From assembly GCA_902612345.1 (NCBI GenBank), contig CACMDE010000002.1:32769-96768 (forward strand): a stretch of 64,000 bases of DNA. Direction: 5' to 3'. A program made the translations under genes and the position numbers. The notes beneath the pieces are model-generated. The model had not been told where the DNA came from. It made no database searches and was given only the letters and a program-made list of their open reading frames with translations. Within the stretch, counting starts at the first letter, position 1. Each line of letters begins with the position of its first letter. Positions 28,071 through 54,882 of this stretch are shown piece after piece. Source of the stretch: an uncultured Pelagibacteraceae bacterium (lineage in GTDB: Bacteria; Pseudomonadota; Alphaproteobacteria; Pelagibacterales; Pelagibacteraceae).

Positions 28071-28853
28071 ATGAAAAAAATTCTAATTGTTGAAGGTAAC
28101 CTGAGAGAAGAAAATCAAAATTTTTCTACTTCTGGTATACAAACTCATACTCAAAGTCTTCAAGATACCTTAGCCAATTTTACAAATGAACTTGATATGG
28201 ATGTAGTAAACCCATCATCAGATGAAGATATTGATAAAAAAGTAAAGGAACTTAATAAATATAATGGCTTAATATGGGGTGGTAGTAGTTTAAACATCTA
28301 CAATGATACTCCTGAAATAAGGAGACAAATTCAATTTATGAAAGAATGTCAAAAAAAAGTAAAAAATATTCTAGCTATTTGTTGGGGCATGCAAGTAGCT
28401 GTTACAGCAGCTGGAGGAGTTGTAAAAAAATCATCTAATGGAGCTCATATAGGAATTGCAAATCAATTAGTAATAAACGAACAAGGATTAAAACATCCAT
28501 TGTACAGTGGAAAAAAAAATAATTTTAATACACCAGCATTTAATTTTGATGAAGTAGCTACACTTCCAGAAAATGGTGTTTGCTTAGCATCAAATAAAAT
28601 AAACAAAGTTCAAAGTATGTATTTTAAAATAAATAATAATAATATTTGGGGTTTACAGTATCATCCCGAAATCACTTATCAAAAAATGATACAACTTATA
28701 AAGTTTAGAAAAGATAGATTAATTGAAACAAGGAAAGTGTTTGCCAATCATGACCAAGTTGATGAACATATTTCTTTTATAGAAAAAGAAATATCAATTT
28801 CTGACAATCAACAGAGAATGATTGAATTAAAAAATTGGTTGAATTCTTTTTAA
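28071..28853 (+). CDS. class I (GATase1) glutamine amidotransferase-like protein
   Basis: 260 residues of the stand-alone triad amidotransferase family (GuaA-N-like). The nucleophile is Cys104 in [10 protein letters not shown], and the His-Glu pair is in [10 protein letters not shown]. An oxyanion-type loop is [10 protein letters not shown]. The C-terminal tail of about 50 residues is charged. Such proteins (the YfeJ type) have poorly known roles and often hydrolyse gamma-glutamyl amides. Given the tmm neighbour and the gamma-glutamylmethylamide pathway, hydrolysis of a gamma-glutamyl compound is an attractive idea but unproven. Its stop overlaps the fhs stop by four bases. Confidence 0.78.
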
Positions 28854-30529
28854 AATAGACCTTCTATTTCACCTTTGTCATTGAGCTTGATAGAGTCTGC
28901 TGCAGGTACTCGTGGTAGTCCTGGCATTGTCATTATTTCTCCACATACAACAACAACAAATTCAGCTCCTGATGATAAACGAACTTCCCTTACTGGAAGC
29001 ACATGACCAGTTGGAGCACCTTTTAAATTTGGATCTGTAGAGAAACTATATTGAGTTTTTGCAATACATACAGGAAGTTTTCCATAACCTTTTTCCTCAA
29101 AATCTTTTAGCTGTTGTCTTACTTTTGTATCTGCAACTACTTCGCTTGCGTGATAAATTTCTTGAGCAATTTTTTCAATCTTTTTAAACAAACTTAATTT
29201 ATCTTCATATAGGTACTTAAATGTATTTTTATTGTCTTCACAAATTTCTACAATGTTTTCAGCAAGCTCTGTCGCACCTTCTCCTCCGTTTGACCAATGG
29301 GTACATTTTGATGCTTTTACACCTTGTGTTTTACAAAAGTCTAATAATGTATTCATTTCTTTATCTGTATCAGTGATAAAATGATTTACTGCAATAGTGA
29401 CTGGAATACCAAATTTTCTTGTGTTGTTAATATGCCTTTCTAAATTGACTAATCCTTTATTCAGAGCATCTACATTTTCATTTTTTAATTCATCTTTCGA
29501 AACCCCACCATGCATTTTAAGCGCTCTAATTGTTGCTACAATAACTACACAATCCGGTTTAATTCCGGATTTTCTACATTTTATATTTAAAAACTTTTCA
29601 GCACCAAGATCGGCACCAAAACCTGCTTCAGTAACAACAAAATCTGCTAATTTTAAACCTGCTTTAGTTGCAATTACCGAATTACATCCATGAGCAATAT
29701 TCGCAAAAGGACCTCCATGAATAATCGCAGGATTATTCTCTAATGTCTGAGTTACATTTGGTCTAATTGCATCTTTTAAAAGAACAGTCATTGGACCTTG
29801 GGCATTTAAATCTTTTGCATAAATAGGTTTTTTATCTCTAGTATAAGCTATTGTTATATTTCCAATTCGATTTTCCAAATCTTTTAAATCATTAGCAAGG
29901 CAAAATATTGCCATTATCTCAGACGCCACAGTTATGTCAAACCCATCTTGTCTAGGATATCCATTTGCAACACCTCCTAAATCAACAACTATTGATCTAA
30001 GCGACCTATCATTCATATCCATTACTCTTTTCCAAACTACTCTTCTCACGTCAATATTAAGTTTGTTGCCCCAGTAAATATGATTATCAATTAACGCAGA
30101 CAATAAATTGTGAGCAGACGTAATAGCATGAAAGTCTCCAGTAAAATGTAAATTAATTTGTTCCATAGGAACTACTTGTGCATATCCACCACCTGCTGCA
30201 CCACCTTTCATTCCAAAAGAAGGTCCTAAACTTGGTTCTCTTAGACAAACAATTGATTTTTTTCCAATTTTATTTAAACCGTCATTTAAACCTACAGACG
30301 TAGTTGTTTTTCCTTCTCCAGCTGGCGTAGGTGTAATTGCAGTAACAAGAATTAATTTTCCATCTTTTGTACTTTTTTGTTGATCAAGATACTCTAAATT
30401 AATTTTGGCAATGTGTCTGCCCATTGGGCTAAAAGCTTTCGGATCATCTGGAACATTTAATACCTCAAGGATTTCCTTAATAGGTTTCATATTTGCCGCT
30501 CTTGCTATTTCAATATCAGATTTAGGCAT
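28850..30529 (-). CDS. fhs: formate-tetrahydrofolate ligase
   Basis: 559 residues, ATP-dependent interconversion of formate and 10-formyl-THF. The P-loop is [14 protein letters not shown]. Other family segments are [53 protein letters not shown] and [32 protein letters not shown]. The size matches the family. It lies between tmm and mgdABCD, so it belongs to the C1 arm that handles methyl groups released as methylene/formyl-THF, yielding formate and ATP or formyl-THF for purines. Divergent start with mgdA over 116 bases. Confidence 0.97.
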
Positions 30530-30645: not shown

Positions 30646-31902
30646 ATGCAGAAATATTCTGTTTTTAGCTTGATTAAAAATGCGTTTTCAGACCATATGA
30701 ATTGGGAGGTGGCCTGGAAAGATCCAACTCCAAAGAAAGAGTATGATGTAATCATAATCGGTGGTGGTGGACATGGTTTAGCTACAGCATATTATTTAGC
30801 AAAAGAGCATAACATAACAAATGTTGCAATAATCGAGAAGGGTTGGATTGGCGGAGGAAATGTTGGAAGAAATACAACAATAATTCGTTCAAACTTTATG
30901 TACGATGCTAATGGACGGTTTAATGAATTTGGAATGGAATTATGGAGGAACCTCAGTCAAGAATTAAATTTTAATGTAATGTTTTCTCCAAGAGGAATAA
31001 TCAACCTTGCACACTCTGATGCTCAAATGAATGCTTATGCTAGAAGAGGCAATTCAATGAGATTAAATGGAATTGATGCAGTTTTATTAGGAAGAGAAGA
31101 AGTAAAAAAACATATCCCAATGGCAGACTTTTCTGACGATGTGCGCTTTCCAATTTTTGGAGGATTAATGCAACCAAGCGCTGGTACAGCAAGACATGAT
31201 GCAGTTGCATGGGGATATGCAAGACAAGCTGACTCAATGGGTGTAGATATTATTCAACATTGTGAAGTTGAGGGATTTAATATTACTAATGGAAAAATTA
31301 CTGGAGTAAGGACCTCAAAAGGAGAAATTAACGCAAAAAAAGTTGGGTTATGTGTAGCTGGAAGTACAAATATTCTTGCAGAAAAACTAAATATGACACT
31401 ACCAATTGAAACACATTGTCTTCAAGCTTGTGTTTCTGAACCAGTAAAACCTTTACTTGATGGAGTGGTTACATTTGGTGCTGGTCATTTTTATATAAGC
31501 CAGTCTGATAAAGGTGAAATGGTAATGGGCGGAGATTTAGATGGTTATAATAGTTACGCACAAAGAGGAAATCTTCCAACTATACAACATGTTTTAACAG
31601 GTGGTTTAGCTTTGTTTCCATTTTTAAGTAGACTTAAAATGCTTCGAACGTGGGGAGGAATAATGGATATGTCAATGGATGGCTCACCTATTATTGATAA
31701 AACACATATCGATGGATTATATTTAAATTGTGGATGGTGTTATGGTGGATTCAAGTCTACTCCTGTTTCGGGTTGGACTTTTGCTCATACAATTGCACAA
31801 GACAGACCACATGAATTAAATTCAGAATTATCTTTAAATAGATTTTCAACTGGGTATCTTTTAGATGAAAAGGGCATTGGGACAAAAACTTGGATAGGTT
31901 AA
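30646..31902 (+). CDS. mgdA: N-methylglutamate dehydrogenase / sarcosine oxidase beta-type subunit
   Basis: 418 residues of the heterotetrameric sarcosine oxidase beta (SoxB) family. The FAD motif is YDVIIIGGGGHGLATAYYLAK, followed by EKGWIGGGNVGRNTTIIRSNF, a hallmark of SoxB/MgdA. C-terminal flavin segment: WGGIMDMSMDGSPIIDKT and NCGWCYGGFKSTPVSGW. First gene of a four-gene B-D-A-G operon. In methylamine utilisers the same architecture is called MgdABCD and oxidises N-methylglutamate to glutamate, passing the methyl group to THF. Sarcosine oxidation by this particular copy cannot be excluded from sequence. The tmm/fhs/gmaS/mgs context favours N-methylglutamate. Confidence 0.85.
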   Translation: MQKYSVFSLIKNAFSDHMNWEVAWKDPTPKKEYDVIIIGGGGHGLATAYYLAKEHNITNVAIIEKGWIGGGNVGRNTTIIRSNFMYDANGRFNEFGMELWRNLSQELNFNVMFSPRGIINLAHSDAQMNAYARRGNSMRLNGIDAVLLGREEVKKHIPMADFSDDVRFPIFGGLMQPSAGTARHDAVAWGYARQADSMGVDIIQHCEVEGFNITNGKITGVRTSKGEINAKKVGLCVAGSTNILAEKLNMTLPIETHCLQACVSEPVKPLLDGVVTFGAGHFYISQSDKGEMVMGGDLDGYNSYAQRGNLPTIQHVLTGGLALFPFLSRLKMLRTWGGIMDMSMDGSPIIDKTHIDGLYLNCGWCYGGFKSTPVSGWTFAHTIAQDRPHELNSELSLNRFSTGYLLDEKGIGTKTWIG

Positions 31903-31905
31903 ATT

Positions 31906-32172
31906 ATGCTTTATATTAAATGCCCTTATTGCGGGATGAGATCGCAGAATGAATTTGCTTACGGAGGAGACGCTTCAGTCAAACGACCAGAATTAAATAA
32001 AGATGTAACAGATAAAGAATGGGATGACTTTGTTTATAATAGAAAAAGCTTAAGAGGAAAACATATAGAACTTTGGCACCATGTTTCAGGTTGCAGGCAA
32101 TGGTTTAAAGCTCAAAGAGATACAGCTACTCACGAAATTTTCAAAACCGCAACGATGAATGAAGAAATATAA
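31906..32172 (+). CDS. mgdB: N-methylglutamate dehydrogenase / sarcosine oxidase delta-type subunit
   Basis: 88 residues of the SoxD family. The structural zinc site is visible as CPYCG near the N-terminus plus WHHVSGCRQWF, giving C-x2-C...H...C. Other conserved stretches are FAYGGDASVKRPE and RDTATHEI. It is the small subunit that stabilises the complex. It begins three bases after mgdA and overlaps mgdC by a TAATG junction. Confidence 0.87.
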   Translation: MLYIKCPYCGMRSQNEFAYGGDASVKRPELNKDVTDKEWDDFVYNRKSLRGKHIELWHHVSGCRQWFKAQRDTATHEIFKTATMNEEI

Positions 32173-35168
32173 TGTCTCAGGAATTTAGAATTAAAGAAAA
32201 AGGGTACATTAATAGAAATAAAACTATTAATTTTAAGTTTAATGGCAAAAATTATACTGGATATGAAGGAGATACTTTAGCATCTGCTCTTTTAGCAAAT
32301 GGAGTCCATTTAGTTGGAAGAAGTTTTAAATATCATAGACCTAGAGGTTTTTTTGCCGCCGGAGTAGATGAGCCAAATGCAAAATTACAAGTTGAATTAA
32401 ATGGACATTCCGAACCAAATGTTAATGCAACAGAAATTGAGTTAGTAGAAGGTATATCAGCCACTAGTCAGAATTGTTGGCCGTCTGTAGAGTTTGATAT
32501 TGGTGCAATTAACAATTTACTTAATAAATTTTTTCCCGCAGGTTTTTATTACAAAACTTTTATGTGGCCCAAGAGTTTTTGGTACAAAATTTATGAACCA
32601 TTTATAAGAAAAGCTGCCGGACTAGGGGTTGCGTCTATAGAAAAGGATAGGGAGAGGTATGAACACAAATTTGAATACTGTGATTTACTTGTAACAGGCT
32701 CTGGACCGGCTGGCCTCGCAAGCGCATATGCAGCAGCAAAAAGTGGAGCAAAAGTTATTTTAGCTGAAGATAAGCACAGATTTGGCGGATCACTTTTGAT
32801 GGATGATGTGAGTATTGATAATTTATCTGGAAAAGATTGGACGGATAAAATTGTTTCAGAACTAAAAGAAATGCCAAACGTAACAGTAAAAAATCGTTCA
32901 CAAGTTTTTGGCTACTACGACCATAACATGCTTGTTATGTTTGAAAGAACAGGAGACCACCGCGAAAAAAAATCAGAATTTACACCAAGACAAAGACTTT
33001 GGTACATAAGATGTAAAGAGGTAATACTTTCAACTGGATCAATAGAAAGACCGATTGTTTTTGGAAACAATGATACACCTGGAGTTATGCTTTCATCAGG
33101 AGCAAAAGAGTACATGAAAGTTTATGGAGTTCTTGTCGGTAGAAAACCAATTATATTCACAAATAACGATAGCGCATATGAAACTGCTATAGAATTTAAA
33201 AATAATGGAGTCGAACCTTTAATCTTAGACACAAGAAAAGAGCAAAATTCAGATTTAATTAATGAGGCAAAAAATAAGGGTATTAAAATTAAATTTAATC
33301 ATGCTGTTATTAAAGCAAACGGCTACAAAAAAGTAAAATCTGCAATTATTGGTGAATTATCAGATGATAAAACAGAATATAAAAATACTAATAATGTAGA
33401 ATGTGATTGTATTTGTGTATCTGGATTTTGGACACCATCAGTTCACTTGGCATCACAATCAGGAAATAAATTAAAATTTGACAAAGAAATTGACTCTTTT
33501 ATACCAGATAAATCAAAACAAAATGAAATAACAGTTGGAGCAGCAAATGGAGATTTTACTCTAAAAAATACATTAAATGCTGGTTTTAAAGCAGGAAACG
33601 AAGTTTCAAAGAAAATAAATAATAAAGATGTAGCAATACAAGTTCCAAACGTTACAGAAAAAAATCATAAGGTTCATGATAAATTTTGGTGCTCACCTTT
33701 GCCAAAAAATCTTAAAGCAAAAAGATTTGTTGATTTTCAAAATGACGTTTCAGTTACAGATATAGAAATTGCTCTTAGAGAGGGGTATAGGTCAATTGAG
33801 CATGTAAAAAGATATACCACGCTTGGTATGGCAACTGATCAAGGAAGAACAAGTAATTTAAATGGTCTTCAACTTGTTTCTAATATTGAAAATAAAATTG
33901 TTCCAGAAGTTGGACATACTACTTTTAGACCACCATTTACTCCAGTGACTATTGGTACAATTGTTGGTAGAGAAGTAGGAAAACACTTTATGCCAACAAG
34001 ATTAACCCCAATCCATGAATGGCATGTTAAAAATAATGCAGTGTTTGTTGATGCTGGAGCTTGGAAGAGACCTAGATATTATAAAATTGGCAACGAAACA
34101 ATGTTAGATGCAGCAAACCGTGAAGCAAAAAACGTAAGAGACAAAGTTGGAATTTGTGATGTAACAACATTAGGAAAGATTGATGTTAAAGGACCAGATG
34201 CAGCTGAATTCTTGAATAGAGTTTATACAAATGCTTGGATGAAACTTCCTGTAGGTAAAGCAAGATATGGAGTAATGCTTAGAGAGGATGGAATGGTAAT
34301 GGATGATGGTACTACAACACGAATAGCAGAAAATCATTATCATATGACCACAACAACAGCTCAAGCTGCAAATGTACTGTCTCACTTAGAATATTATCTT
34401 CAAATTATTTGGCCAGAATTAAATGTAAATGTAGTTTCAACAACTGAACAATGGGCAGGCGCAGCTTTGGCAGGACCTAAGTCTCGAGATGTTTTGGCTA
34501 AACTCTTTCCAAATTCTAATGTTTCAAATGAGACTTTGCCATTCATGGGATATATGGAAGCAAATTTATTTGGAATACCAGCAAGAATTTTTAGAATCTC
34601 TTTTTCAGGCGAGCTTGCTTATGAAATAAATGTTCGATCGGATTATGGAATGTTTATGTGGGAAAAAATTATGGAAATAGGCAAAGAGTACGGAATTCAA
34701 CCATATGGTACAGAGGCATTGTCCACATTGAGAATAGAAATGGGACATGTTGCTGGGCCTGAATTAGATGGAAGAACTATACCTTATGATGTATCCCTTG
34801 AAGGAATGGTTTCAAAGAAAAAAGATTTTATAGGAAAAAGATCTTTAACAAAATTAGCTTTCAATCAACAAGATAGACAGAAAATTGTAGGATTGATTCC
34901 ACTTGATAGAAAAACTAGTATTCCTGAAGGATCACATCTTGTTTTAGACAAGAACGCGAAACTACCAAATCCAAAACTAGGACATGTGTCATCTTCATGT
35001 TGGAGTGTTGAAAATAATAATCCGTTTTCATTAGCGATCATAAAAGATGGGAAAAACATGATTGGTAAAAAATTATTCGCAGTATCACCACTAAAAAATA
35101 AATCTATAGAGGTCGAAGTAATCTCGTCTCATTACGTTGATCACGAAGGAAAGAGGGTAAGATCGTGA
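32172..35168 (+). CDS. mgdC: N-methylglutamate dehydrogenase / sarcosine oxidase alpha-type subunit
   Basis: 998 residues, the large SoxA-type subunit. The N-terminal domain (about residues 15-110) has the 2Fe-2S-ferredoxin-like fold of the family (FNGKNYTGYEGDTLASALLANG, RSFKYHRPRGFFAAG). A FAD/NAD domain starts near residue 174 (LLVTGSGPAGLASAYAAAKSG). The C-terminal half is a GcvT-like THF-binding domain (NVRDKVGICDVTTLGKIDVKGPDA, ISFSGELAYEINV, TLRIEMGHVAGPELDGRT). The latter accepts the methyl group from the amine as methylene-THF. It ends in a GTGA overlap with mgdD. Confidence 0.9.
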   Translation: MSQEFRIKEKGYINRNKTINFKFNGKNYTGYEGDTLASALLANGVHLVGRSFKYHRPRGFFAAGVDEPNAKLQVELNGHSEPNVNATEIELVEGISATSQNCWPSVEFDIGAINNLLNKFFPAGFYYKTFMWPKSFWYKIYEPFIRKAAGLGVASIEKDRERYEHKFEYCDLLVTGSGPAGLASAYAAAKSGAKVILAEDKHRFGGSLLMDDVSIDNLSGKDWTDKIVSELKEMPNVTVKNRSQVFGYYDHNMLVMFERTGDHREKKSEFTPRQRLWYIRCKEVILSTGSIERPIVFGNNDTPGVMLSSGAKEYMKVYGVLVGRKPIIFTNNDSAYETAIEFKNNGVEPLILDTRKEQNSDLINEAKNKGIKIKFNHAVIKANGYKKVKSAIIGELSDDKTEYKNTNNVECDCICVSGFWTPSVHLASQSGNKLKFDKEIDSFIPDKSKQNEITVGAANGDFTLKNTLNAGFKAGNEVSKKINNKDVAIQVPNVTEKNHKVHDKFWCSPLPKNLKAKRFVDFQNDVSVTDIEIALREGYRSIEHVKRYTTLGMATDQGRTSNLNGLQLVSNIENKIVPEVGHTTFRPPFTPVTIGTIVGREVGKHFMPTRLTPIHEWHVKNNAVFVDAGAWKRPRYYKIGNETMLDAANREAKNVRDKVGICDVTTLGKIDVKGPDAAEFLNRVYTNAWMKLPVGKARYGVMLREDGMVMDDGTTTRIAENHYHMTTTTAQAANVLSHLEYYLQIIWPELNVNVVSTTEQWAGAALAGPKSRDVLAKLFPNSNVSNETLPFMGYMEANLFGIPARIFRISFSGELAYEINVRSDYGMFMWEKIMEIGKEYGIQPYGTEALSTLRIEMGHVAGPELDGRTIPYDVSLEGMVSKKKDFIGKRSLTKLAFNQQDRQKIVGLIPLDRKTSIPEGSHLVLDKNAKLPNPKLGHVSSSCWSVENNNPFSLAIIKDGKNMIGKKLFAVSPLKNKSIEVEVISSHYVDHEGKRVRS

Positions 35169-35743
35169 GCAGCATTTCTTCTTTAAAAAATATCCATAAA
35201 TTAGGATTATTTGGTGATTGCATTAATAAAAACGAAAATCAGATAATTAAAATAAAAGAGATTAAGAATATAAATCTATTTCAAGTTGTAAAATATAAAA
35301 ATTCTAAAGTAAATTTATCAAATCTTGAAATAGATGGAGTAAAATTATCTGAAAGTCTTAAAACTTCGAATAATTCATCTACTAGAATTATTTGGATGGG
35401 TCCGAATAATTGGTATATTTTTTCAATCAAAGATATTACTGAAGATTTAAAAATTTTTAAAGACACAGATTTTGCAATTACTGATCTTTCACAATCAAGA
35501 TCAATTATTGAGCTTCAAGGTGATATGGCTTACGAAGTTTTAAAAAAAGGTTCTCCTTTGGATATAAATAAATTAAAACCAGGTGATTGTGCTAACACTG
35601 TTTATAATGGAATCACAATTACTTTAGATTTTATTTCAAAAGATCCAAATATAATTAGAATATTTGGTTTGAGAAGTTTTGGAGAATCATTGTACCATTC
35701 AATAACTGATTCTAGTCTAGAGTTTGGTTATAAATCTGTTTAA
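35165..35743 (+). CDS. mgdD: N-methylglutamate dehydrogenase / sarcosine oxidase gamma-type subunit
   Basis: 192 residues with the SoxG-like pattern: LSESLKTSNNSSTRIIWMGPNNWYIFS, DLSQSRSIIELQGDMAYEVLKKGSPLDI and PGDCANTVYNGITITLDF. It starts with GTG overlapping the mgdC stop (GTGA). It completes the B-D-A-G order of the heterotetramer. The gamma subunit contacts the THF-binding domain of the alpha subunit in the family. One base separates its stop from the convergent gene. Confidence 0.85.
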   Translation: MSSISSLKNIHKLGLFGDCINKNENQIIKIKEIKNINLFQVVKYKNSKVNLSNLEIDGVKLSESLKTSNNSSTRIIWMGPNNWYIFSIKDITEDLKIFKDTDFAITDLSQSRSIIELQGDMAYEVLKKGSPLDINKLKPGDCANTVYNGITITLDFISKDPNIIRIFGLRSFGESLYHSITDSSLEFGYKSV

Positions 35744-44491: not shown

Positions 44492-45070
44492 CTAAGTAAG
44501 TGTAGCTGAACTTCCTACAAAATTTGAAGCTACATAGAGTATAAATATTATTAATGGAGCTAATGCTATTAAAGAGGATTTAAATATATTCTTGTAATTA
44601 TAAACTGAGTTAATTCCAATAATTAAACATACATTGTACCAAATATATGTAACAAAAATTAAAAATAAAGTAGATTGACTAAAAGCTAAACAGTTAAAAA
44701 TCAAAGGAGTTTGAGCCATACCCATTAAAATTAAAGTTTTTCTAAAATTGCAATTTGTATTTTTACTTGGAAAAATAATAACGCCAACAAAATGAATATA
44801 AAAAGATTTAATTACCCATGTAACAAACGAGGTTAATAAAACTATTTTTAAAGATGGACCCTCAACTTTTCCTAATGCAAAATAAGAACTCATTAGTTCT
44901 AAAAATGCTGAATTTGGAATTATACTTATTAATGAGTTGATCAGTACAATTATTATTGCAAAATATATTGCAGCTTCTCCAAAATTATTTTTATTAAAAA
45001 AGTAATTTTTATTTAATTTTAAAGTATTGAGGTAAATATTAATTAGTTGATTTAAAATCATCATTCTCAT
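44492..45070 (-). CDS. Yip1-like multi-pass membrane protein
   Basis: 192 residues with about five hydrophobic segments (for example AAIYFAIIIVLINSLISIIP, TLFLIFVTYIWYNVCLIIGI and SSLIALAPLIIFILYVASNF). The organisation, with the conserved 'MGMAQTPLIFNCLA' helix and 'YIWYNVCLIIGINSVYN' region, resembles bacterial Yip1-domain proteins. Function unknown. Its start lies inside the 3' end of a 40-residue ORF on the same strand, suggesting coupled translation. Confidence 0.6.
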   Translation of the reverse strand: MRMMILNQLINIYLNTLKLNKNYFFNKNNFGEAAIYFAIIIVLINSLISIIPNSAFLELMSSYFALGKVEGPSLKIVLLTSFVTWVIKSFYIHFVGVIIFPSKNTNCNFRKTLILMGMAQTPLIFNCLAFSQSTLFLIFVTYIWYNVCLIIGINSVYNYKNIFKSSLIALAPLIIFILYVASNFVGSSATLT

Positions 45071-45250: not shown

Positions 45251-46609
45251 CTAACCCTTTACTACTTCTCTAGTGTTTGCGTTAAATGATTCTTTAAATG
45301 GTATGTCAACAACCACTGCATCGACAGGTCGTCCTGGTTTGTCTGAATACTTTTCAGGCAAATGAACTTTATACTTAGTTCCTACTTTACCTTTGGGAAA
45401 CCCGTTAGCATTTAAGGTTCCATCAAAAGGTACATAACCCATTGCAATATTAGTTTTCTTTTCAGGATGCCACCAAGGTGAAGTTACAAAACCAACTGGT
45501 TCACCTCCATCACCATTTGAAATTAACCAAAAATCTGGCGCATAATCATCAATAGGTTTGCCACCTAATTCCATACCAACTAATTGAAGTTTGTATGGTT
45601 TTTTGCCAGCTTTAATTTCTGCACCCATAGCTTCCAAAGCTTTTTTACCTACATAATCTGCTTTTTTATTCCATTCACCTTTTCCTGAAAGTGAAACTTG
45701 ATAACCAAGATTACATTGATAAGGATTGTGTTGATGGTCCATATCTTGACCCCAAGATAAAATACCTGCTTGAATTCTTCTGTGATGAGCTGGTGCAATT
45801 ACCATCAATTTATGTTTTTTTCCTGCATCAAGAACAGCATTCCACATGTCCTCAGCATACAAAGTAGACTCTCTTAGATATATTTCATATCCAGCTTCTC
45901 CTGAGAAACCTGATTGGGAAATTATACAACTTCTTCCACCAATTTTAGCTGAAGCTAGTCCATAAAAAGGAATATCATCAAAGTCAACTTGATCACCACA
46001 AAGATCTTGCATTAGTGCTTTAGATTTTGGACCTTGTATTTGAACTGGAGACACATCTATTTCATTTATTTCACAGTTAAATCTATTATCCGAGTTAACA
46101 CCTTGTAGATACATCCCTATATCACTATCAGATAATGAAAACCAAAACTCATCTTCTGAAATTCTTAATAGTATAGGATCATTCAAAACTCCTCCATACT
46201 GATTGCATAAGATTACATATCTTGCTTTCATAGGTGAAATTTTTGTTGCATCTCTTGTAATCACATAATCAACAAATTTTTCTGCATCGGGACCTTTGAC
46301 TTGTATTTGCCTTTCAACAGCTACGTTCCACATTGTTACATGATTTACAATTGCATCATATTCAACCATTGCTCCACCATCTTCAGGTTTTACATACCCC
46401 CTCGGATGATAAATACGATTGTACACAGTTGCTCTCCAACAACCTTCTTTCATTGATAAATGCCAATAAGGTGACTTTCTTACTCTTGTTGAAATTAGCA
46501 TTTCTACTTTTGTTGGTCCGCTTTGTCTTAAATTATAAGGGACCTTTCTGTCAGATTGATCCACTGACGTTACATGTCTCATTTTATTATAATCAAACTC
46601 TTTAGACAT
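45251..46609 (-). CDS. GcvT-family THF-dependent demethylase (DmdA/LigM-like)
   Basis: 452 residues. The N-terminal domain carries the segment HVTMWNVAVERQIQVKGPDAEKFVDYVITRDA and the glycine-cleavage-T pattern IISQSGFSGEAGYEIYL, GILSWGQDMDHQHNPYQCNLGYQVSL. This set is shared with DMSP demethylase DmdA and with the aromatic O-demethylase LigM. At 452 residues, with a C-terminal extension (PVGFVTSPWWHPEKKTNIAMGYVPF, PVDAVVVDIPF), it is nearer LigM in length than DmdA (about 370). It overlaps the MetF-like gene by eight bases and shares an operon with a quaternary-amine-type transporter. It probably moves a methyl group from an unidentified substrate onto THF. Confidence 0.75.
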   Translation of the reverse strand: MSKEFDYNKMRHVTSVDQSDRKVPYNLRQSGPTKVEMLISTRVRKSPYWHLSMKEGCWRATVYNRIYHPRGYVKPEDGGAMVEYDAIVNHVTMWNVAVERQIQVKGPDAEKFVDYVITRDATKISPMKARYVILCNQYGGVLNDPILLRISEDEFWFSLSDSDIGMYLQGVNSDNRFNCEINEIDVSPVQIQGPKSKALMQDLCGDQVDFDDIPFYGLASAKIGGRSCIISQSGFSGEAGYEIYLRESTLYAEDMWNAVLDAGKKHKLMVIAPAHHRRIQAGILSWGQDMDHQHNPYQCNLGYQVSLSGKGEWNKKADYVGKKALEAMGAEIKAGKKPYKLQLVGMELGGKPIDDYAPDFWLISNGDGGEPVGFVTSPWWHPEKKTNIAMGYVPFDGTLNANGFPKGKVGTKYKVHLPEKYSDKPGRPVDAVVVDIPFKESFNANTREVVKG

Positions 46610-47330
46610 ACTTGTTCTCCATCAACCACTTGTTAGTTTCCTTCAAGCCGCCGAATGTATAAATGTGGAAGTTATCAGTGTGCGATTTAACCTTCCCAAT
46701 TAAATCATTTGGGTCTTTAGGTTTCATTAAATCTAACGCCTTACTAAAATTAGATTTAAGAAAGTTTAAGGAATTTTTTGCCCCAACTATATTTGCAAAC
46801 TTTATTATGCTTGTAATTTTTAAAGGTCCAGTAATTCCAACATGAACTGGTACTGATTGTTTAGATATAAAATCTATGATTGGCTGAGGGTCTAGTAACC
46901 ATTGAGTAACTATATAGTCAGCATAAGGCTTTTTATCATTCATAGCTTTTTCCAATTTTGAGTCTGATATATCAGGACTTCCTTCTGGGTGTCCAGCAAT
47001 TCCAATCCTCATATCCTCAAAATAACCAGTTTCTAGAAGCTGGAAAGAACTATCAAATTGTCCAATTGGTTTTCTACTACCACCAATTACTAAAACTTGC
47101 TTAGTCCCGCCATCTTTGCATCTAGAAATGTATTCTTTAAGTTGTGTTTCATTCTCAATTGATCTAGCAGGAATATGAGGAATTGGGTTAAATCCTTTTT
47201 TAACCAATTTTTCAGCCTGATCAGCTGTTTCCTTAAAATCACCTCCTGGTAAAAGAGTAATATATACATCTCTTAAAGCTGGTAATGTTTCAAGGTCAGT
47301 AGATGGACTAATCTCAATTGAAAAATTCAT
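46602..47330 (-). CDS. methylenetetrahydrofolate reductase-like protein
   Basis: 242 residues of the MetF barrel family: FSIEISPSTDLETLPAL, VYITLLPGGDFKETADQAEKLVKKGFNPIPHIPARSI, QVLVIGGSRKPIGQF, RIGIAGHPEGSPDISDSKLEKAMNDKK, YIVTQWLLDP and VHVGITGPLKI. It is shorter than E. coli MetF (296). Paired with a methyl-THF-forming demethylase it would oxidise 5-methyl-THF to methylene-THF, as in the ligM-metF pair of sphingomonads. The start codon sits 40 bases downstream of the permease stop, and its stop overlaps the demethylase start. Confidence 0.82.
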   Translation of the reverse strand: MNFSIEISPSTDLETLPALRDVYITLLPGGDFKETADQAEKLVKKGFNPIPHIPARSIENETQLKEYISRCKDGGTKQVLVIGGSRKPIGQFDSSFQLLETGYFEDMRIGIAGHPEGSPDISDSKLEKAMNDKKPYADYIVTQWLLDPQPIIDFISKQSVPVHVGITGPLKITSIIKFANIVGAKNSLNFLKSNFSKALDLMKPKDPNDLIGKVKSHTDNFHIYTFGGLKETNKWLMENKYV

Positions 47331-47371
47331 TCGAGATCTTTATTTATTTTACAATAACTGTCTAGATAATT

Positions 47372-48256
47372 TTACTTTCTCTGACCTCTATGTTTTTGGA
47401 TCCTTCTACCATACTCTTGAGTGACCCTATCGAATACAATTGCTAAAGCGACAATTGCTAGTCCATTAAACAAACCAAGAGCTAAGTATTGATTAGACAC
47501 AGCTCTTAAAATTGGCACTCCTAGCCCTTTTACTCCAATCATAGATGCAATCACTACCATGGCAAGAGCCATCATGATTGTTTGGTTTACTCCAGCAAAT
47601 ACCGTTGGTAACGCTAAGGGTATTTGGACCGATTTTAATTTTTGGACTGTTGTGGCACCAAATGCCTCACTAGCCTCCAAAGTCTCTTTATCTACCTCTC
47701 TAATACCGAGATTGGTTAACCTTATTATTGGAGGCACCGCATAAACACAAACTGCTATTAGTCCGGGAACTTTTCCAATTCCTAACAACATTAATATTGG
47801 AATAAGATAAACGAAGCTAGGAATTGTTTGCATCATATCTAAAACTGGAAGTATTGCTCTTTCAGCCCTTGCAGACCTAGCCATAACAATTCCTATTGGA
47901 ATTCCAAATACGATACAAATGATTGTGCAAACAGTAATGATAGCAACAGTTGCCATACAGTCTTCCCACATGCCAAAGTAGCCAATTAATAAAAATGCAA
48001 TTGCACTTCCTACTACAAGTTTCCAACTTCTTGAACCTAACCAAGCTAAACTACAAATTACTGCAATTATTATAATCCATGAAGTTGATAATAACAATTT
48101 TTCTAAAGATACTAAAAAAAATAATAATGGATCAAAAAAAGCTTCTATTCCGTCTCCATATTCTCTTGAAAAATTTCTAAACGCTAAGTCTATACCTTTT
48201 CTTAGCTCCATTTGTGAACGTCTACCTAGTTCAGGAAATTCAGTGAAAAATTCCAT
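47372..48256 (-). CDS. quaternary-amine-type ABC transporter permease
   Basis: 294-residue single-domain permease of the ProW/OpuAB family. About seven hydrophobic segments are seen, and the EAA loop reads EASEAFGATTVQKLKSVQIPLALPTVFAGVNQ. Other conserved parts are LDMMQTIPSFVYLIPILMLLGIGKVPG and ASMIGVKGLGVPILRAV. No ATPase gene lies in this cluster, so it must borrow one from elsewhere, possibly TmoW in this window. An intercistronic hairpin separates it from the binding-protein gene. Confidence 0.88.
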   Translation of the reverse strand: MEFFTEFPELGRRSQMELRKGIDLAFRNFSREYGDGIEAFFDPLLFFLVSLEKLLLSTSWIIIIAVICSLAWLGSRSWKLVVGSAIAFLLIGYFGMWEDCMATVAIITVCTIICIVFGIPIGIVMARSARAERAILPVLDMMQTIPSFVYLIPILMLLGIGKVPGLIAVCVYAVPPIIRLTNLGIREVDKETLEASEAFGATTVQKLKSVQIPLALPTVFAGVNQTIMMALAMVVIASMIGVKGLGVPILRAVSNQYLALGLFNGLAIVALAIVFDRVTQEYGRRIQKHRGQRK

Positions 48257-48271
48257 AATTATTTTTTCTAT

Positions 48272-48301
48272 TAACGAGCCTATTTAAAAATAGGCTCGTT
48301 A
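48272..48301 (-). other. intercistronic hairpin between binding protein and permease genes
   Basis: Perfect inverted repeat TAACGAGCCTATTT / AAATAGGCTCGTTA with a 2-base (effectively about 6-base) loop. It lies in the 56-base gap between the two ABC genes. No T-run follows on the minus strand, so it is more likely an mRNA-stabilising or processing stem that keeps binding-protein mRNA high relative to the downstream genes than a full terminator. Confidence 0.7.
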
Positions 48302-48312
48302 GATTTAAGTTT

Positions 48313-49332
48313 TTATAAACTTTTTTTGATTTTTTTTGCAGCTGATGAAGATACCCATTTAGTCCACACATCTTCATGTTTAATTAAAAATTCAACTGCC
48401 GCATCAGATCCTTTTGCTTGGTTATCAGCCATATATACAAGCATTCCATTCATCACTTCACCAGGAAATACTCTTTTTTCAACATAGCTTAAAGCTTCTT
48501 TACCGCCAGTTTTTGCAAAATTAGCTGTTACAATAGAATTAACTTCTGATTTTGTCCAAGCTGTAGGTTTTGGATTTGCACAATCTTGCTCTGCAAGTGT
48601 TATGCAATTATCCCAGTTATCTCTTCCAGCAAATGGCACACCAAAATCAACTGATTGTAAATTATATTTTCCAACCATTGATGTAGGGTTCCAATAATAT
48701 CCAAACCAAGGTTCACCAGAGTCAGATGCTTTCGCAATAGATCCGTCTAAACCTGCAGCAGAACCTGGATCAATTAATTTCCAACCTTTTTTTTCCATTT
48801 CAAATGCTCTAAAAAGATTTGCGTTAGCTAACTGACATCCCCAACCAGCAGGACATCCCATGAAAGCACCTTTTGATGGATCTTCTTTATCAGGAAATAA
48901 ATCAGGACGTTCTAATATTTGCACTGCTGTCATACCTTTAAGTTCTGGGTGTTTTTTTAAAGCTGCTGGGTTTAACCACCATCCTTCACCAAGACCTGTA
49001 ATTGGTGCACCATTAGCAATAATTAATCTTTTTTCACTTACTGCTTTTTTTAATGGTGTGTAAACTGCATTAGCCCATTGTTCTGGGTTCATGTCAGGTG
49101 AGCCTTTATCATTCATCGAAGTAAAAGTTGGCATAGTAGCACCTGGAACAAGTTCCACGTCACAACCATAACCCTCTTCTAATATAATTTTATCAACGTT
49201 GGCCATTAATTCAGCTGACGCCCAGTTTTGCTCTGCAATAACTAGTTTTCCACATTTAGCATTTGCAATTCCAGAAAAAGATGTGAAACCAAGTATTACT
49301 AAAGCGGAAATAATTATGTTTTTTATTTTCAT
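48313..49332 (-). CDS. quaternary-amine-type ABC transporter substrate-binding protein
   Basis: 339 residues. Signal peptide MKIKNIIISALVILGFTSFSGIANA-K. The OpuAC-like domain contains KLVIAEQNWASAELMANVDKIILEEGYGCDVELVPGATMP, PDMNPEQWANAVY, GLGEGWWLNP and EPWFGYYWNPTSMVGKYN, with Trp residues likely forming the ligand cage. Six cysteines in the mature form suggest disulfides. Preceded by an AAGGGAGA ribosome site. Its sequence clearly differs from TmoX, so another methylated ligand is probable: a betaine, DMSP or similar compound destined for the demethylase two genes downstream. Confidence 0.87.
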   Translation of the reverse strand: MKIKNIIISALVILGFTSFSGIANAKCGKLVIAEQNWASAELMANVDKIILEEGYGCDVELVPGATMPTFTSMNDKGSPDMNPEQWANAVYTPLKKAVSEKRLIIANGAPITGLGEGWWLNPAALKKHPELKGMTAVQILERPDLFPDKEDPSKGAFMGCPAGWGCQLANANLFRAFEMEKKGWKLIDPGSAAGLDGSIAKASDSGEPWFGYYWNPTSMVGKYNLQSVDFGVPFAGRDNWDNCITLAEQDCANPKPTAWTKSEVNSIVTANFAKTGGKEALSYVEKRVFPGEVMNGMLVYMADNQAKGSDAAVEFLIKHEDVWTKWVSSSAAKKIKKSL

Positions 49333-49625: not shown

Positions 49626-50672
49626 ATGACAAAAGATTTAATAACAAGATTAAATGAAGGACCTGTTCTTTTTGCAGAGGGGTATTTGTTTGCAATGGAA
49701 AGAAGAGGATATTTGTCAGCAGGCGCATTCGTTCCAGAAGTAGTTTTAGAGCATCCTGAAGTTGTTTCTCAATTGCATAGAGAATTTATTCGGGCTGGAA
49801 GTGATATTGTCCAAGCATTTACATATTATGGGCATAGAGAAAAATTACGTATAATTGGTAAAGAAGATTTATTAGAACCGTTACAAAAAAATGCTCTACA
49901 AATAGCAAAAGATGCAAGAGATGAGTTTAAAGATCTTGATTTATTAGTCTGCGGTGATGTAGCTAATACAAATATTTATGATCCAAATGATAAAAAAAGC
50001 CATTCTCAGTGTCAAAAAATGTATGAGGAACAAGTTGCGTGGGCAAAAGAGGCTGGTGTAGATTTCATAGTTGCTGAAACGATTAATTGGACTGAAGAGA
50101 TGAAAATTGCACTTAAAGCTATAAAGGATGAAGGCTTAATTGCAGTGGCAAATTTTTCTATAAAAAAAGGTGATAAAACAAGAGAAGGACATACACCGGG
50201 TGAAGCATGCAAAATAATGGAGGATCTTGGAGCTGATGTAGTAGGGTTAAATTGTTATAGAGGACCAAAGATGACAATGAAACTTTTACCAGAAATTAGA
50301 GAAAAAGTTTCCTGTCACGTTTCTGCTTTACCAGTTCCATATAGAACAACCGAAGAAGAGCCAGGTTTTTTAAATCAAACAGACCATGGTTGTGATTGTA
50401 TACCTGGAGGAAATGCCTTTCCTGTTGCGTTAGATAATTTGTATTGCAACAGATTTGAAATGGCTCAGTTTGCAAAGGATTGCGAAAAACGAAAAATAAA
50501 TTTAATTGGTATTTGTTGTGGAGCAGAACCTCATCATGTTAGAGAAATGGCAGTTGCCTTAGGTAGAAAACCAATAGCATATAAATATTACCCAAATATG
50601 AGCAAACATTTTTTACATGGAACAGACAAATCTTTAAAAGAGATAAATACAAGTATGAAAAATAAATATTAA
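49626..50672 (+). CDS. bhmT: betaine-homocysteine S-methyltransferase
   Basis: 348-residue zinc-dependent methyltransferase (homocysteine S-methyltransferase fold) that transfers a methyl group from glycine betaine to homocysteine, giving methionine and dimethylglycine. Zinc ligands are in VGLNCYRG and IGICCGAEPHHVREMA. The N-terminal segment LFAEGYLFAMERRGYLSAGAFVPEVVLEHPE and IVQAFTYYGHREKL are typical of BHMT. The ATG follows a strong AAAGGAGG site. It overlaps the dimethylglycine dehydrogenase gene (TAATG), which removes its by-product. SAR11 needs reduced sulfur and methyl donors, which fits this locus. Confidence 0.93.
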   Translation: MTKDLITRLNEGPVLFAEGYLFAMERRGYLSAGAFVPEVVLEHPEVVSQLHREFIRAGSDIVQAFTYYGHREKLRIIGKEDLLEPLQKNALQIAKDARDEFKDLDLLVCGDVANTNIYDPNDKKSHSQCQKMYEEQVAWAKEAGVDFIVAETINWTEEMKIALKAIKDEGLIAVANFSIKKGDKTREGHTPGEACKIMEDLGADVVGLNCYRGPKMTMKLLPEIREKVSCHVSALPVPYRTTEEEPGFLNQTDHGCDCIPGGNAFPVALDNLYCNRFEMAQFAKDCEKRKINLIGICCGAEPHHVREMAVALGRKPIAYKYYPNMSKHFLHGTDKSLKEINTSMKNKY

Positions 50673-53077
50673 TGGAAAAAAATGCAAAAGTAGTAATTAT
50701 TGGAGGTGGTGTAGTTGGTTGTTCTATACTTTACCACCTTTCAAAATTTGGATTAAAAGATTGTATTCTTTTAGAGAGGAACGAGCTTACGTCGGGATCT
50801 TCTTGGCATGCTGCTGGAAATGTGCATGTAATTTCTAACGACCCAAATATTTCAAGAATGATGGCTTATACTATAGGTTTATATAAAGAGATTGAAAAAG
50901 AGTCTGGTCATTCTGTAGGTTTTAAACCAAGTGGTGGATTTTATTTAGCATCTAATGAAACTTGGGCCGATTATTTGAAAAGAGAGAGATCAAAAGCTCG
51001 ATATATGGGTCTTGATCAAGAGTTTATCTCTCTTGAAGAGGTTAAAAAGAAAAATCCATTAATTGATCCTTCAAGATATCTTTTGGCTCTTTGGGATCCA
51101 ATAGATGGTGAAGTCGATCCATCTGGAGTCACTTACGCATTTGCAAAAGCAGCTAAAGTTTATGGTGGAAAATATTATACTCATACAGTTGTTAAGGATA
51201 CTAAACAAAGACAAGATGGATCATGGGATGTTATAACTGAAAAGGGAAATATTAATGCAGAAATAGTGATTAACGCTGGAGGTTTATGGGCTAGAGAGGT
51301 TGGTCAATTAGCTGGTTTAAATTTACCAGTTCAACCCATGGAGCATCATTATTTAATTACTGAGGCAATCCCAGAAATAGAAGAAATGGGAGATCAAAGA
51401 TTACCAATAGGAACAGACTTTGAGGGAAACATTTATTTTAGACAAGAAGGCAAAGGAATGTTGCTCGGGACATATGAACCAAAATCTACACCTTGGAAAG
51501 TAGAGGGAACACCAATGAATTTTGGTCATGAATTATTAGAACCTAAGCTTGATAATATTCAAGATAGATTAGCAATTGGTTTTGAGAGGATGCCGGCACT
51601 ACAAAAAGCTGGAATTAAAAATATAGTTAATGGACCTTTTACTTTTGGTCCAGACGGAAGTCCTCTAATTGGACCTGTTCCAGGTTTAAAAAATTATTGG
51701 GTAGCAGTAGGTGTAATGGCTGGTTTTTGCCAAGGGGGTGGTGTTGGAAAATGCATTGCTGAGTGGATTATAGACGGCGAACCTTCAATAGATGTCTGGG
51801 CAATGGACGTTGCAAGATTTGGAAATTATGCATCTCCTCAATATGGAACAATTAAATCTTCTGAAAACTATGAAAGAAGATTTATTATGACTTTTCCTAA
51901 TGAGACTTTGCCAAAAGGAAGAAAACAAAAAACTACAGCCCTTTATGATAGATTTGTACAACAAGGTGCAGTCATGGGAGATAGTTTTGGTTTAGAAAAT
52001 GTATTGTGGTTTGCTAAAAATAAAGAAGATGCATTTGAAGAACCAACTATCAAAAGATCAAGATCGCACAATTATGTTTCAAAAGAGGTAATAAATGTTA
52101 GAGAAAATGTTGGAGTGATAGAGGTTGCAAATTTTTCTAAACATGAATTCAAAGGACCTGATGCTAGAAAATTTTTAGATCATATTTTAGCAGGAAGGTT
52201 GCCCAAACCTGGAAGAATTTCTTTATCACCAATGCTTTCTTATAGAGGAAAATTGTATGGTGATTTAACAGTAGCATGTTTTGATGAAAACGATTTTATG
52301 GTTTTTGGTTCTGGTGCTGCACAAGAAATGCATAGACGATGGTTTGAAAGTCATATTAATAAATTTAATTTGTCATATAACAATAGATCAGATGAATTTC
52401 ATGGCTTATCGATTGCTGGACCAAGATCTAGAGAGTTACTTCAAAAAATAACAAGAGAGGATGTTTCAAATACAAATTTAAAATTTAGGGACTCTAGACA
52501 TATGTTTGTGGGAGGAGTTCCTGCTATTGTAAATAGAATTTCTTTTACTGGAGAGTTAGGTTATGAAATTTATGTAGCTCCTCATTTTCAGCTAAAACTT
52601 TATGAAGAAATTATGGAAGCTGGGAAAGAATTTAATATAAAACCATTTGGTGGAAGAGCGCTAATGTCAATGAGATTAGAAAAAAATTGGGGTGCATGGA
52701 CACTAGACTATAGACCTGATTTTACCGCAAAAGAGACTGGTTTAAATACATTTATAAATTGGGATAAAGAGTTTATTGGAAAAGAAAATGCTAAAAAAGA
52801 TAATAGCTCAAATCAACTTGTTCCTTTAATTGTTCAAACAAATGATATCGATGTAACTAACAATGAGGCCGTTATGAAAAAAGATAAAAGTATAGGATAT
52901 GTTACTTCAGGCGGTTTTGCGCATTATGTTAATAAAAGCATTGCTTTTTCTTATGTGAATAAAAATGAAATACAATCTGATAAAGGAATTCAGATAGAAA
53001 TTAATGGAGATTTGTTTAATTGCTCAATAATTAAAGAACCCCTCTATGATCCAAGCGGACAAAAGATGAGAAGCTAA
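50672..53077 (+). CDS. dimethylglycine dehydrogenase-like FAD/THF enzyme
   Basis: 801 residues. N-terminal FAD domain (VVIIGGGVVGCSILYHLSKFG), with the covalent-flavin His in SGSSWHAAGNVH. C-terminal GcvT domain (about 430-800): VGVIEVANFSKHEFKGPDARKFLDHIL, ISFTGELGYEIYVAP and ALMSMRLEKNWGAWTLDYRPDF. This is the domain order of dimethylglycine/sarcosine dehydrogenases, which hand the methyl group to THF. Directly after bhmT it is best read as dimethylglycine dehydrogenase yielding sarcosine. A sarcosine dehydrogenase role cannot be excluded. Confidence 0.9.
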   Translation: MEKNAKVVIIGGGVVGCSILYHLSKFGLKDCILLERNELTSGSSWHAAGNVHVISNDPNISRMMAYTIGLYKEIEKESGHSVGFKPSGGFYLASNETWADYLKRERSKARYMGLDQEFISLEEVKKKNPLIDPSRYLLALWDPIDGEVDPSGVTYAFAKAAKVYGGKYYTHTVVKDTKQRQDGSWDVITEKGNINAEIVINAGGLWAREVGQLAGLNLPVQPMEHHYLITEAIPEIEEMGDQRLPIGTDFEGNIYFRQEGKGMLLGTYEPKSTPWKVEGTPMNFGHELLEPKLDNIQDRLAIGFERMPALQKAGIKNIVNGPFTFGPDGSPLIGPVPGLKNYWVAVGVMAGFCQGGGVGKCIAEWIIDGEPSIDVWAMDVARFGNYASPQYGTIKSSENYERRFIMTFPNETLPKGRKQKTTALYDRFVQQGAVMGDSFGLENVLWFAKNKEDAFEEPTIKRSRSHNYVSKEVINVRENVGVIEVANFSKHEFKGPDARKFLDHILAGRLPKPGRISLSPMLSYRGKLYGDLTVACFDENDFMVFGSGAAQEMHRRWFESHINKFNLSYNNRSDEFHGLSIAGPRSRELLQKITREDVSNTNLKFRDSRHMFVGGVPAIVNRISFTGELGYEIYVAPHFQLKLYEEIMEAGKEFNIKPFGGRALMSMRLEKNWGAWTLDYRPDFTAKETGLNTFINWDKEFIGKENAKKDNSSNQLVPLIVQTNDIDVTNNEAVMKKDKSIGYVTSGGFAHYVNKSIAFSYVNKNEIQSDKGIQIEINGDLFNCSIIKEPLYDPSGQKMRS

Positions 53078-53706
53078 TGGCTCAAAAAGATGTAGGAAAT
53101 AAAGTACCAATTTATAAATTAAAAAAAACAGATGAAGTAATGAAGTATTACGATGAGTGGGGAGAAGAAAATAAATATGATAAAGATATGGTTGATTGGA
53201 ATTATACAGGTCCAAAAGAAACTTCAGAAATTTTTAATAAATATGCAAATGATAAAAACATTAAAATTTTTGATGCTGGATGTGGTACTGGTTTAGTTGG
53301 TGTTGAATTAAAAAAACTTGGTTTTGTCAATTTTTATGGAGCCGATCTTTCACAGAAACTTTTAGATTTAGTACCCTCTGGACTTTATAAATCTTTAGAA
53401 AAAGTTGATTTAAACCAAAAAATTAATCATGAAGACAACACTTATGATGCAGTTATGTGTGTTGGAACATTTACTTTTGGACATGTTAAACCTCCAGCAC
53501 TAGATGAGTTTATAAGAATTACAAAGAATTCTGGTTTAATTTGTTTTACAATTAATGAAGGAATCCACGAGGAGTATGGTTTTGATAAAAAATTAGATGA
53601 ACTTAAAAAAAAAAATAAATGGAAAGAGATTGAATTTTTTAAGTCGGATTATATTGCAAGTAAAGATGTAAATGCGTGGCTTGGTTTGTATAAGGTTATA
53701 AAATAA
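53077..53706 (+). CDS. class I SAM-dependent methyltransferase
   Basis: 209 residues. SAM motif I is IKIFDAGCGTGLVGVEL (about 62-78), followed by FYGADLSQKLLDLV, YDAVMCVGTFTFGHVKPPALDEFIRI and GLICFTINEGIHEEYG. This order is that of the small Methyltransf_11/25 type enzymes. TAATG overlaps on both sides. It lies between dimethylglycine dehydrogenase and a Rieske oxygenase, so the methyl acceptor could be a small amine or acid of the same pathway. The acceptor is unknown. Confidence 0.85.
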   Translation: MAQKDVGNKVPIYKLKKTDEVMKYYDEWGEENKYDKDMVDWNYTGPKETSEIFNKYANDKNIKIFDAGCGTGLVGVELKKLGFVNFYGADLSQKLLDLVPSGLYKSLEKVDLNQKINHEDNTYDAVMCVGTFTFGHVKPPALDEFIRITKNSGLICFTINEGIHEEYGFDKKLDELKKKNKWKEIEFFKSDYIASKDVNAWLGLYKVIK

Positions 53707-54881: not shown

Positions 54882-54882
54882 A

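Follow-up and report, generated by a model that had tools for sequence, protein, structure and literature searches.

A MetF-GcvTX gene pair of SAR11 bacteria as a putative module for demethylating glycine betaine without cobalamin, next to an importer cassette with separate inheritance

Positions 45251-49332 of a 64,000-nucleotide stretch of DNA from an uncultured SAR11 bacterium (the window) hold four minus-strand open reading frames (ORFs) with operon-like spacing (Table 1). The source assembly comprises 1.07 Mb, is 83% complete and has its near relatives in the Pelagibacteraceae. The ORFs encode a substrate-binding protein resembling DmpX, an ABC permease, a short and divergent MetF-like protein, and a GcvT-fold protein described here as GcvTX, separated by gaps of 56 and 41 bp and, between MetF and GcvTX, by an 8 bp overlap. 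A preliminary description of this DNA, made from the sequence alone, had recognised the four co-directional genes and read them as one dedicated pathway for an unknown methylated compound. Our analysis confirms the gene arrangement, and suggests that MetF and GcvTX probably form a SAR11 module that demethylates glycine betaine independently of cobalamin and lies beside an importer cassette with its own inheritance.

We compared 100 SAR11 loci, all retrieved via GcvTX: the best 80 of a longer list (L001-L080) and 20 picked for diversity (L134-L153), where L and G numbers denote the loci and genomes of our own catalogue. MetF lies immediately upstream of GcvTX in all 95 loci with at least 800 bp of upstream sequence, and the binding protein and permease lie upstream of this pair in 56 of the 87 loci with at least 3.4 kb; this recurrence excludes chance ORFs, and the four genes are real. 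The constant pairing also supports the earlier suggestion of a tetrahydrofolate (THF)-type demethylase candidate coupled to MetF. The transporter half of the arrangement, by contrast, is disrupted in relatives, being missing from the other 31 loci. Where 6.5 kb of upstream sequence is available, loci with the transporter also carry BHMT (51/53) and DMGDH (51/53), whereas those without it carry neither (0/30 for each). Pairwise-identity correlations over 48 loci follow the same division (binding protein-permease, 0.97; MetF-GcvTX, 0.92; binding protein-GcvTX, 0.20).

The transporter also occurs on its own. In SAR11 family f2 (L166, L169-L171, L173) the binding protein and permease have their own ATPase behind them, truncated where the contig stops in L169 and L171, and stand apart from MetF-GcvTX; in L166 this transporter with its ATPase adjoins BHMT-DMGDH. 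The whole transporter cluster with ATPase is located away from GcvTX in G133 (L168), and G007 has the binding protein and permease with no GcvTX, MetF or DMGDH1 match. The linkage counts, the identity correlations and these separate loci together mark the transporter as a facultative cassette, subject to recombination, that belongs to the BHMT-DMGDH module, with MetF-GcvTX as a core pair, so that the four genes look like two modules rather than a single pathway. That they serve one import-demethylate-oxidise route for one unknown compound is an idea favoured by their common direction, 41-56 bp gaps, 8 bp overlap and repetition in 56 loci; it is very unlikely given that the transporter is not beside the pair in 31 loci, tracks BHMT and DMGDH rather than GcvTX, and in other genomes stands elsewhere with an ATPase behind it.

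The MetF relatives vary in their agreement with the family model: against PF02219 (cut-off 24) those of L151 (29.1 bits) and L174 (51.1 bits) pass and those of L155 and L181 fail. A PF02219 search for a canonical MetF elsewhere in the 83%-complete source genome gave no match, although the same search also misses the divergent copy in the window. Beside the pair itself, MetF-GcvTX of four f2 loci (L134, L151, L152, L153) adjoins a formate-THF ligase and an acyl-CoA-ligase-like gene of approximately 550 residues (named by eye), relatives of the latter occurring in 114 of the 147 genomes of the order, and L136 features an extra 378-residue DmdA-like aminomethyltransferase right behind GcvTX (L136:9401-10537), with DMGDH1 further on.

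The MetF-GcvTX pair is carried by most of the SAR11 bacteria examined. Across these 147 genomes, MetF was found in 117 (E 1e-10) and DMGDH1 in 120, the latter searched with an 810-residue query (L089:17238-19670) at a threshold of E 1e-150 that also counts close paralogs. Fifteen genomes give no GcvTX/DmdA-type match at E 1e-30, and these likewise lack MetF and DMGDH1 at these thresholds. Within genus g5, all three occur in G070 and G136, where separate contigs carry GcvTX and DMGDH1, and none occurs in eight genomes. GcvTX and DMGDH1 are both listed in 109 genomes and share a contig in 87, of which 83 have them within 25 kb of one another (median 12.6 kb over 86 same-contig genomes); the source genome is among the four exceptions, at 32.9 kb. 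The distance set includes 13 additional listed pairs, of which 12 are on different contigs and one (G071) is partial. In four genomes that are 92-96% complete (G010, G125, G132, G133), GcvTX is the sole match at E 1e-30, with no DmdA-like paralog, gaps in the assemblies being possible; GcvTX therefore does not seem to depend on the presence of DmdA.

The match to PF01571 (the GCV_T folate-binding domain) and the tri-domain fold place GcvTX within the GcvT-fold superfamily, while it scores below the cut-offs of more specific NCBIfam models: DmdA (NF009133) at 238.2 bits against a cut-off of 410, the GcvT models at 152.1, 126.6 and 114.4 bits against 235.85-459, and LigM and DesA at 35.6 and 43.9 bits against 580 and 800. 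A maximum-likelihood tree of 44 rows gathers 31 GcvTX rows, drawn from SAR11, other Proteobacteria and haloarchaea, in a single clade (100/100; stem 1.23) to which L164 is sister; DmdA and DmdA-like paralogs form a separate clade of eight rows (99/92), with three DmdA-type rows in the tree, and long branches leave the deeper joins unsure. These data uphold the earlier view that the protein is not DmdA. That view had cited its length and a C-terminal extension: GcvTX is indeed longer than DmdA (369 aa), by 83 residues, but the extra residues are not C-terminal alone, with ~31 at the N-terminus, ~8 internal and ~44 after DmdA residue 271. An N-terminal segment (residues ~16-29) is missing from nine aligned DmdA, DmdA-like and GcvT sequences, and W58, H68 and H275, constant in 31 or 32 of 32 GcvTX rows, differ in all nine.

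Structure and sequence nonetheless relate GcvTX to enzymes that demethylate with THF. DmdA (PDB 3tfh, 157 bits) is the closest solved relative by sequence; it shares the GcvT fold, its N-terminal region is shared in part, with residues 40-75 aligning, and its clade is the nearest well-known one, whereas GcvTX differs in its own clade and N-terminal motif, its length, its score and its gene neighbors. LigM and DesA are aryl-methyl-ether:THF demethylases, which pass a methyl group from an unactivated donor to THF and have MetF as a partner; they share the fold and a similar length with GcvTX, but LigM is only ~18% identical in the structure match and both model scores lie far below the cut-offs. 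A GcvTX structure model built from 53 sequences has a predicted local distance difference test (pLDDT) score of 71, falling below 50 for most of the first 75 residues, and matches the folds of GcvT (E 1e-27) and DmdA (E 5e-26), as well as DMGDH, LigM, YgfZ and Iba57. The last two raise the alternative that GcvTX is a folate-binding accessory protein with no methyltransferase activity, for instance in the carrier or regulator role proposed for YgfZ. We regard this as highly improbable: GcvTX is constantly paired with MetF, and Y131 and D144 are kept in all aligned rows, DmdA and GcvT included, and are likewise invariant in a wider set of 53 sequences. These residues align with Tyr83 and Asp96 of Thermotoga GcvT, which we take to be THF-site positions.

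The search beyond SAR11 returned GcvTX (49-82% identity) in 11 of 289 genomes of the same class and in four more, from another class, among 398 genomes of the phylum. The latter are probably Gammaproteobacteria, since named homologs found with a non-SAR11 query (Marinobacter, Woeseia) come from there. Moreover, GcvTX matched 30 plasmid records, of which 16 are true GcvTX, all haloarchaeal, and 14 are DmdA-like (31-35%). We examined 25 non-SAR11 loci (the 15 in genomes and 10 of the 16 on plasmids), and counted neighbors over the sequence retrieved for each. DMGDH-family FAD/THF proteins are near GcvTX in 17 (L155, L156, L159-L163, L174, L176, L177, L180-L183, L185-L187), a MetF-like protein in 15, and one or both in 20; Fhs occurs in six, and SoxA/SoxB in five (L155, L156, L160-L162). 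The haloarchaeal loci variously feature one or two FAD/THF oxidoreductases of ~850 residues, MTHFR, Fhs, FolD, SHMT, DHFR, dihydropteroate synthase, creatininase-family genes and, in one case, a BCCT transporter. In L180 and L181, from one genus, Fhs (plus MetF in L181) comes after GcvTX, and then come GbdR, L-serine ammonia-lyase and a DMGDH-like gene. The GbdR proteins score 497.9 and 500.8 bits, above the cut-off of 480 of a model whose NCBIfam name is choline metabolism regulator. In Pseudomonas, GbdR regulates betaine catabolism in response to glycine betaine. The overall neighbor pattern is common to at least three distant groups, and narrows the substrate of the demethylase, left as an unknown methylated compound in the preliminary description, towards glycine betaine.

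Six of the 14 DmdA-like plasmid matches served as a control, with DMGDH near none of them (0/6), MetF near one (1/6) and DMSP (dimethylsulfoniopropionate)-type or acyl-CoA genes near four (4/6). The comparison bears on a role for GcvTX in the DMSP pathway, either in converting methylmercaptopropionate to mercaptopropionate or as an additional DMSP demethylase supplied by the adjoining DmpX-like importer. The GcvTX counterpart in strain HTCC1062, which we take to be SAR11_1265, was placed near DmdA and adjoining metF by Sun et al., who speculated on removal of the second DMSP methyl group (Sun et al. 2011, PMC3160333). The DmpX-like protein upstream in 56 of 87 loci and the 157-bit match to DmdA are in keeping with that role. 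We consider it rather unlikely, since the haloarchaeal and proteobacterial orthologs adjoin dimethylglycine genes and not DMSP genes, unlike the DmdA-like paralogs, the transporter is not tied to GcvTX, and the four nearly complete genomes above have GcvTX with no DmdA-like paralog, subject to the same possible gaps. It is unlikely, too, that GcvTX acts on one or several other quaternary betaines, such as proline betaine, carnitine or trigonelline, glycine betaine being a side substrate at best. The neighboring FAD/THF enzymes, named at family level with no NCBIfam model above its cut-off, and the Rieske, creatininase-like and M24/creatinase-like genes near some loci would suit such a substrate, but DMGDH together with sarcosine-oxidase-type genes, GbdR and serine ammonia-lyase are consistent with a route that leads to glycine and serine.

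Betaine to dimethylglycine is the candidate step, because it is the redox-neutral step missing from the dimethylglycine/sarcosine pathway, and a need for MetF would imply 5-methyl-THF as the product and thus a non-oxidative methyl transfer. We infer the substrate, reaction and direction of GcvTX as follows. THF would bind on the GcvT fold, and a pocket partly formed by the protein's own N-terminal segment would hold glycine betaine; one methyl group would pass to N5 of THF, redox-neutral as in DmdA with DMSP, to yield dimethylglycine and 5-methyl-THF, a product assumed on the model of DmdA. MetF would oxidize 5-methyl-THF to 5,10-methylene-THF, dimethylglycine dehydrogenase and sarcosine oxidase would yield methylene-THF directly, and FolD, Fhs and formate dehydrogenase would complete methyl oxidation. 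The binding protein and permease of the BHMT-DMGDH module would most likely import DMSP, or possibly glycine betaine. MetH, MetE and the split methionine synthase are reportedly missing from SAR11 (PMC12478193); 5-methyl-THF would therefore be no source of methionine through these enzymes, leaving MetF to run oxidatively. In Ruegeria pomeroyi, no protein is more strongly induced than MetF2 on betaine, choline and carnitine (PMC12478193). In HTCC1062, label from methyl-14C betaine was oxidized to CO2, and the amount entering biomass was negligible (Sun et al. 2011, PMC3160333), which fits betaine-methyl respiration better than a transfer of the first methyl to methionine, in an assay that pools the three methyl groups.

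The betaine demethylations named in PMC12478193 are GbcAB, BHMT and MtgBCD. We lean towards GcvTX as a fourth route, a single-protein, B12-free glycine betaine:THF methyltransferase common to SAR11, other Proteobacteria and haloarchaea, which together with MetF would let SAR11 burn betaine methyl groups without methionine synthesis. MtgBCD with MetF2 of R. pomeroyi performs the overall reaction that is predicted for GcvTX, the conversion of betaine and THF to dimethylglycine and methyl-THF, followed by a MetF, but it requires three proteins and cobalamin where GcvTX is one GcvT-fold protein, and MtgC is reported missing in Pelagibacteraceae (PMC12478193). By sequence, GcvTX belongs to neither the DmdA nor the MtgBCD family; by analogy, it would resemble MtgBCD in outcome and DmdA in chemistry. 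BHMT of the SAR11 or human type also takes the first methyl off glycine betaine, but with homocysteine as acceptor and a flux tied to methionine. Its fold is unrelated to the GcvT fold. GcvT-fold THF-dependent demethylases are a known kind, and what we propose as new is glycine betaine as their substrate. We found no proposal of a GcvT-family betaine demethylase in the literature searched, though other papers, including subscription ones, may hold one; the main text of PMC12478193 contains neither "GcvT" nor "aminomethyltransferase".

Several observations weigh against glycine betaine demethylation by GcvTX. BHMT adjoins the pair in 51 of the 83 SAR11 loci with 6.5 kb upstream, and could itself perform the first betaine demethylation. 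The pocket-forming N-terminal part of the model has pLDDT below 50, so the structure provides no argument for a ligand. SAR11_1264/1265 mRNA falls to 0.10-0.20 in stationary phase, which does not speak for betaine (PMC5069961), and the haloarchaea H. utahensis and H. walsbyi were not helped by betaine (PMC3102087). DMGDH1 occurs with no GcvTX or MetF match in G044, G068 and G142, although the contig ends 1.1 kb beyond DMGDH1 in G044, and inside a Rieske gene in G068, where MetF would be expected next by the L148 layout. Five of the 25 non-SAR11 loci have neither DMGDH nor MetF nearby (L154, L157, L158, L164, L188), and the GbdR link is confined to one genus. GbcA exceeds its cut-off in just one of 16 GcvTX-bearing genomes, but that genome, G784, carries both proteins, and the argument from complementarity is weak. 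A control locus of a different clade, L190, adjoins MTHFR, FolD and PurU, so a MetF neighbor alone is no marker of the GcvTX clade. Finally, the 25 loci include close relatives (Haloarcula species, three f194, two g85 and two g40 genomes) and are not independent; kinship among genomes inflates both the neighbor counts and the 25-kb distances. L190 lies on a Lichenihabitans plasmid, with its DmdA-like gene also near amino-acid-type ABC transporters, and may encode a further THF-dependent demethylase with a different substrate.

The binding protein has a single PDB match at E 0.001 (7yle_A), which we take to be DmpX of Roseovarius nubinhibens, because its residues 35, 64, 84, 113, 152, 153, 200 and 202 match those reported for the DMSP-bound pocket (W35, T64, W84, E113, W152, A153, Y200, W202; PMC10030565). 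Seven of these eight residues are kept in all 70 SAR11 binding proteins (the window's and 69 others), and the eighth, Ala153, is Gly165 in the window and Asn in 49, Gly in 20 and Ala in one of the 70, a variation that possibly reflects two ligand preferences. DmpX of SAR11 strain HTCC7211 (WP_034399263.1) binds DMSP with a Kd of 100 nM (PMC10030565). Because seven pocket residues are kept, the predicted ligand is most likely DMSP, possibly also glycine betaine, and the expectation of a compound outside the known SAR11 substrates would then not hold for this protein. The binding protein and permease resemble the DmpXWV importer (PMC10030565), and differ from it in the Gly substitution, in a ligand that is here predicted, and in the lack of an ATPase gene adjoining the permease. 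The nearest NCBIfam models of the permease are choline and ProW permeases, below cut-off. Of the nearest ATPases of the source genome, one is part of a trimethylamine N-oxide (TMAO)-type cluster (window 21009-22040) and the other of a complete importer located beyond the window (G000:C2:103687-104682). The permease in the window probably borrows the latter ATPase, judging from its relatives (53-87% identity), which come immediately after binding protein and permease in L166, L168, L170 and L173.

Upstream of the binding protein, a divergent cluster (49626-55296) comprises BHMT-like, DMGDH-like, methyltransferase, Rieske and SET-domain genes. The Rieske protein falls short of the NCBIfam GbcA model (NF058607, 130.6 bits against 670). 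Its gene is more variable between strains than the neighboring enzymes and shifts position among them (L014, L016, L019 and others), either adjoining BHMT or behind the methyltransferase. SAM (S-adenosylmethionine) riboswitches control bhmT of HTCC1062 in published work; no Rfam family, riboswitches included, reached the gathering score within the window, nor in particular 5' of the BHMT-like gene, so this control is not transferable to that gene. A homarine pathway was considered for the locus, and no sign of one was found. Behind GcvTX, a 192-residue ORF (44492-45070) lacks Pfam and NCBIfam matches and shares 27-73% identity with the relatives listed, far below GcvTX. M24/creatinase-type genes occur in the window (55316-56551, by eye) and at L179:10244-11482 (Pfam), and a tie to creatine or betaine metabolism is conceivable at both. 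Further away, a large cluster (8011-36428), by eye of TMAO/methylamine genes, includes Tdm-like (16521-18857), TmoX-like (18921-19934, matching PDB 4xz6) and Tmm-like (26671-28011) genes alongside the Fhs and sarcosine-oxidase-type genes of Table 1. The Fhs copy of L162 scores 848 bits against a cut-off of 652.

Table 1. Genes of the GcvTX locus and related one-carbon genes in the window
Feature	Position	Strand	Evidence
GcvTX, 452-aa DmdA-like GcvT-fold protein, predicted glycine betaine:tetrahydrofolate methyltransferase	45251..46609	-	PF01571 137.8 bits (cut-off 25.6)
MetF-like, short divergent methylenetetrahydrofolate reductase, 242 aa	46602..47330	-	PDB 7xg9 E 7e-33; PF02219 20.3 bits (cut-off 24)
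ABC permease, betaine/DMSP type, DmpW/ProW-like, 294 aa	47372..48256	-	PF00528 94.6 bits
OpuAC-type, DmpX-like substrate-binding protein, 339 aa	48313..49332	-	PF04069 149.8 bits; PDB 7yle_A 181 bits
BHMT-like homocysteine S-methyltransferase	49626..50672	+	PF02574 152 bits; BHMT 1lt7 E 1e-45
DMGDH-like FAD/THF oxidoreductase, 801 aa	50672..53077	+	Domains DAO, FAO_M, GCV_T, GCV_T_C
Rieske oxygenase	53706-54881	divergent cluster	Carnitine monooxygenase is the nearest solved relative
Fhs, formate-THF ligase	28850..30529	-	ORF; 58-60% identity to Fhs near GcvTX in L162, L180-L182
SoxB, SoxA, SoxG-like (sarcosine oxidase / N-methylglutamate dehydrogenase type)	30646..35743	+	Named by eye

The 2025 paper that discovered MtgBCD proposes BHMT for betaine use in SAR11 and calls the genes of marine betaine catabolism poorly characterized (PMC12478193). 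The BHMT route would bind betaine use to methionine demand. If the THF route via GcvTX is true, betaine use would be uncoupled from methionine, the respiration of betaine methyl groups would be explained, cobalamin would be unnecessary, and GcvTX would provide a new marker gene; it is also a testable alternative to the role in removing the second DMSP methyl group guessed at in 2011. Beyond SAR11, haloarchaeal betaine use has been suspected from DMGDH-type and BCCT genes (PMC3102087), and our analysis predicts a function for haloarchaeal genes annotated as "glycine cleavage system protein T".

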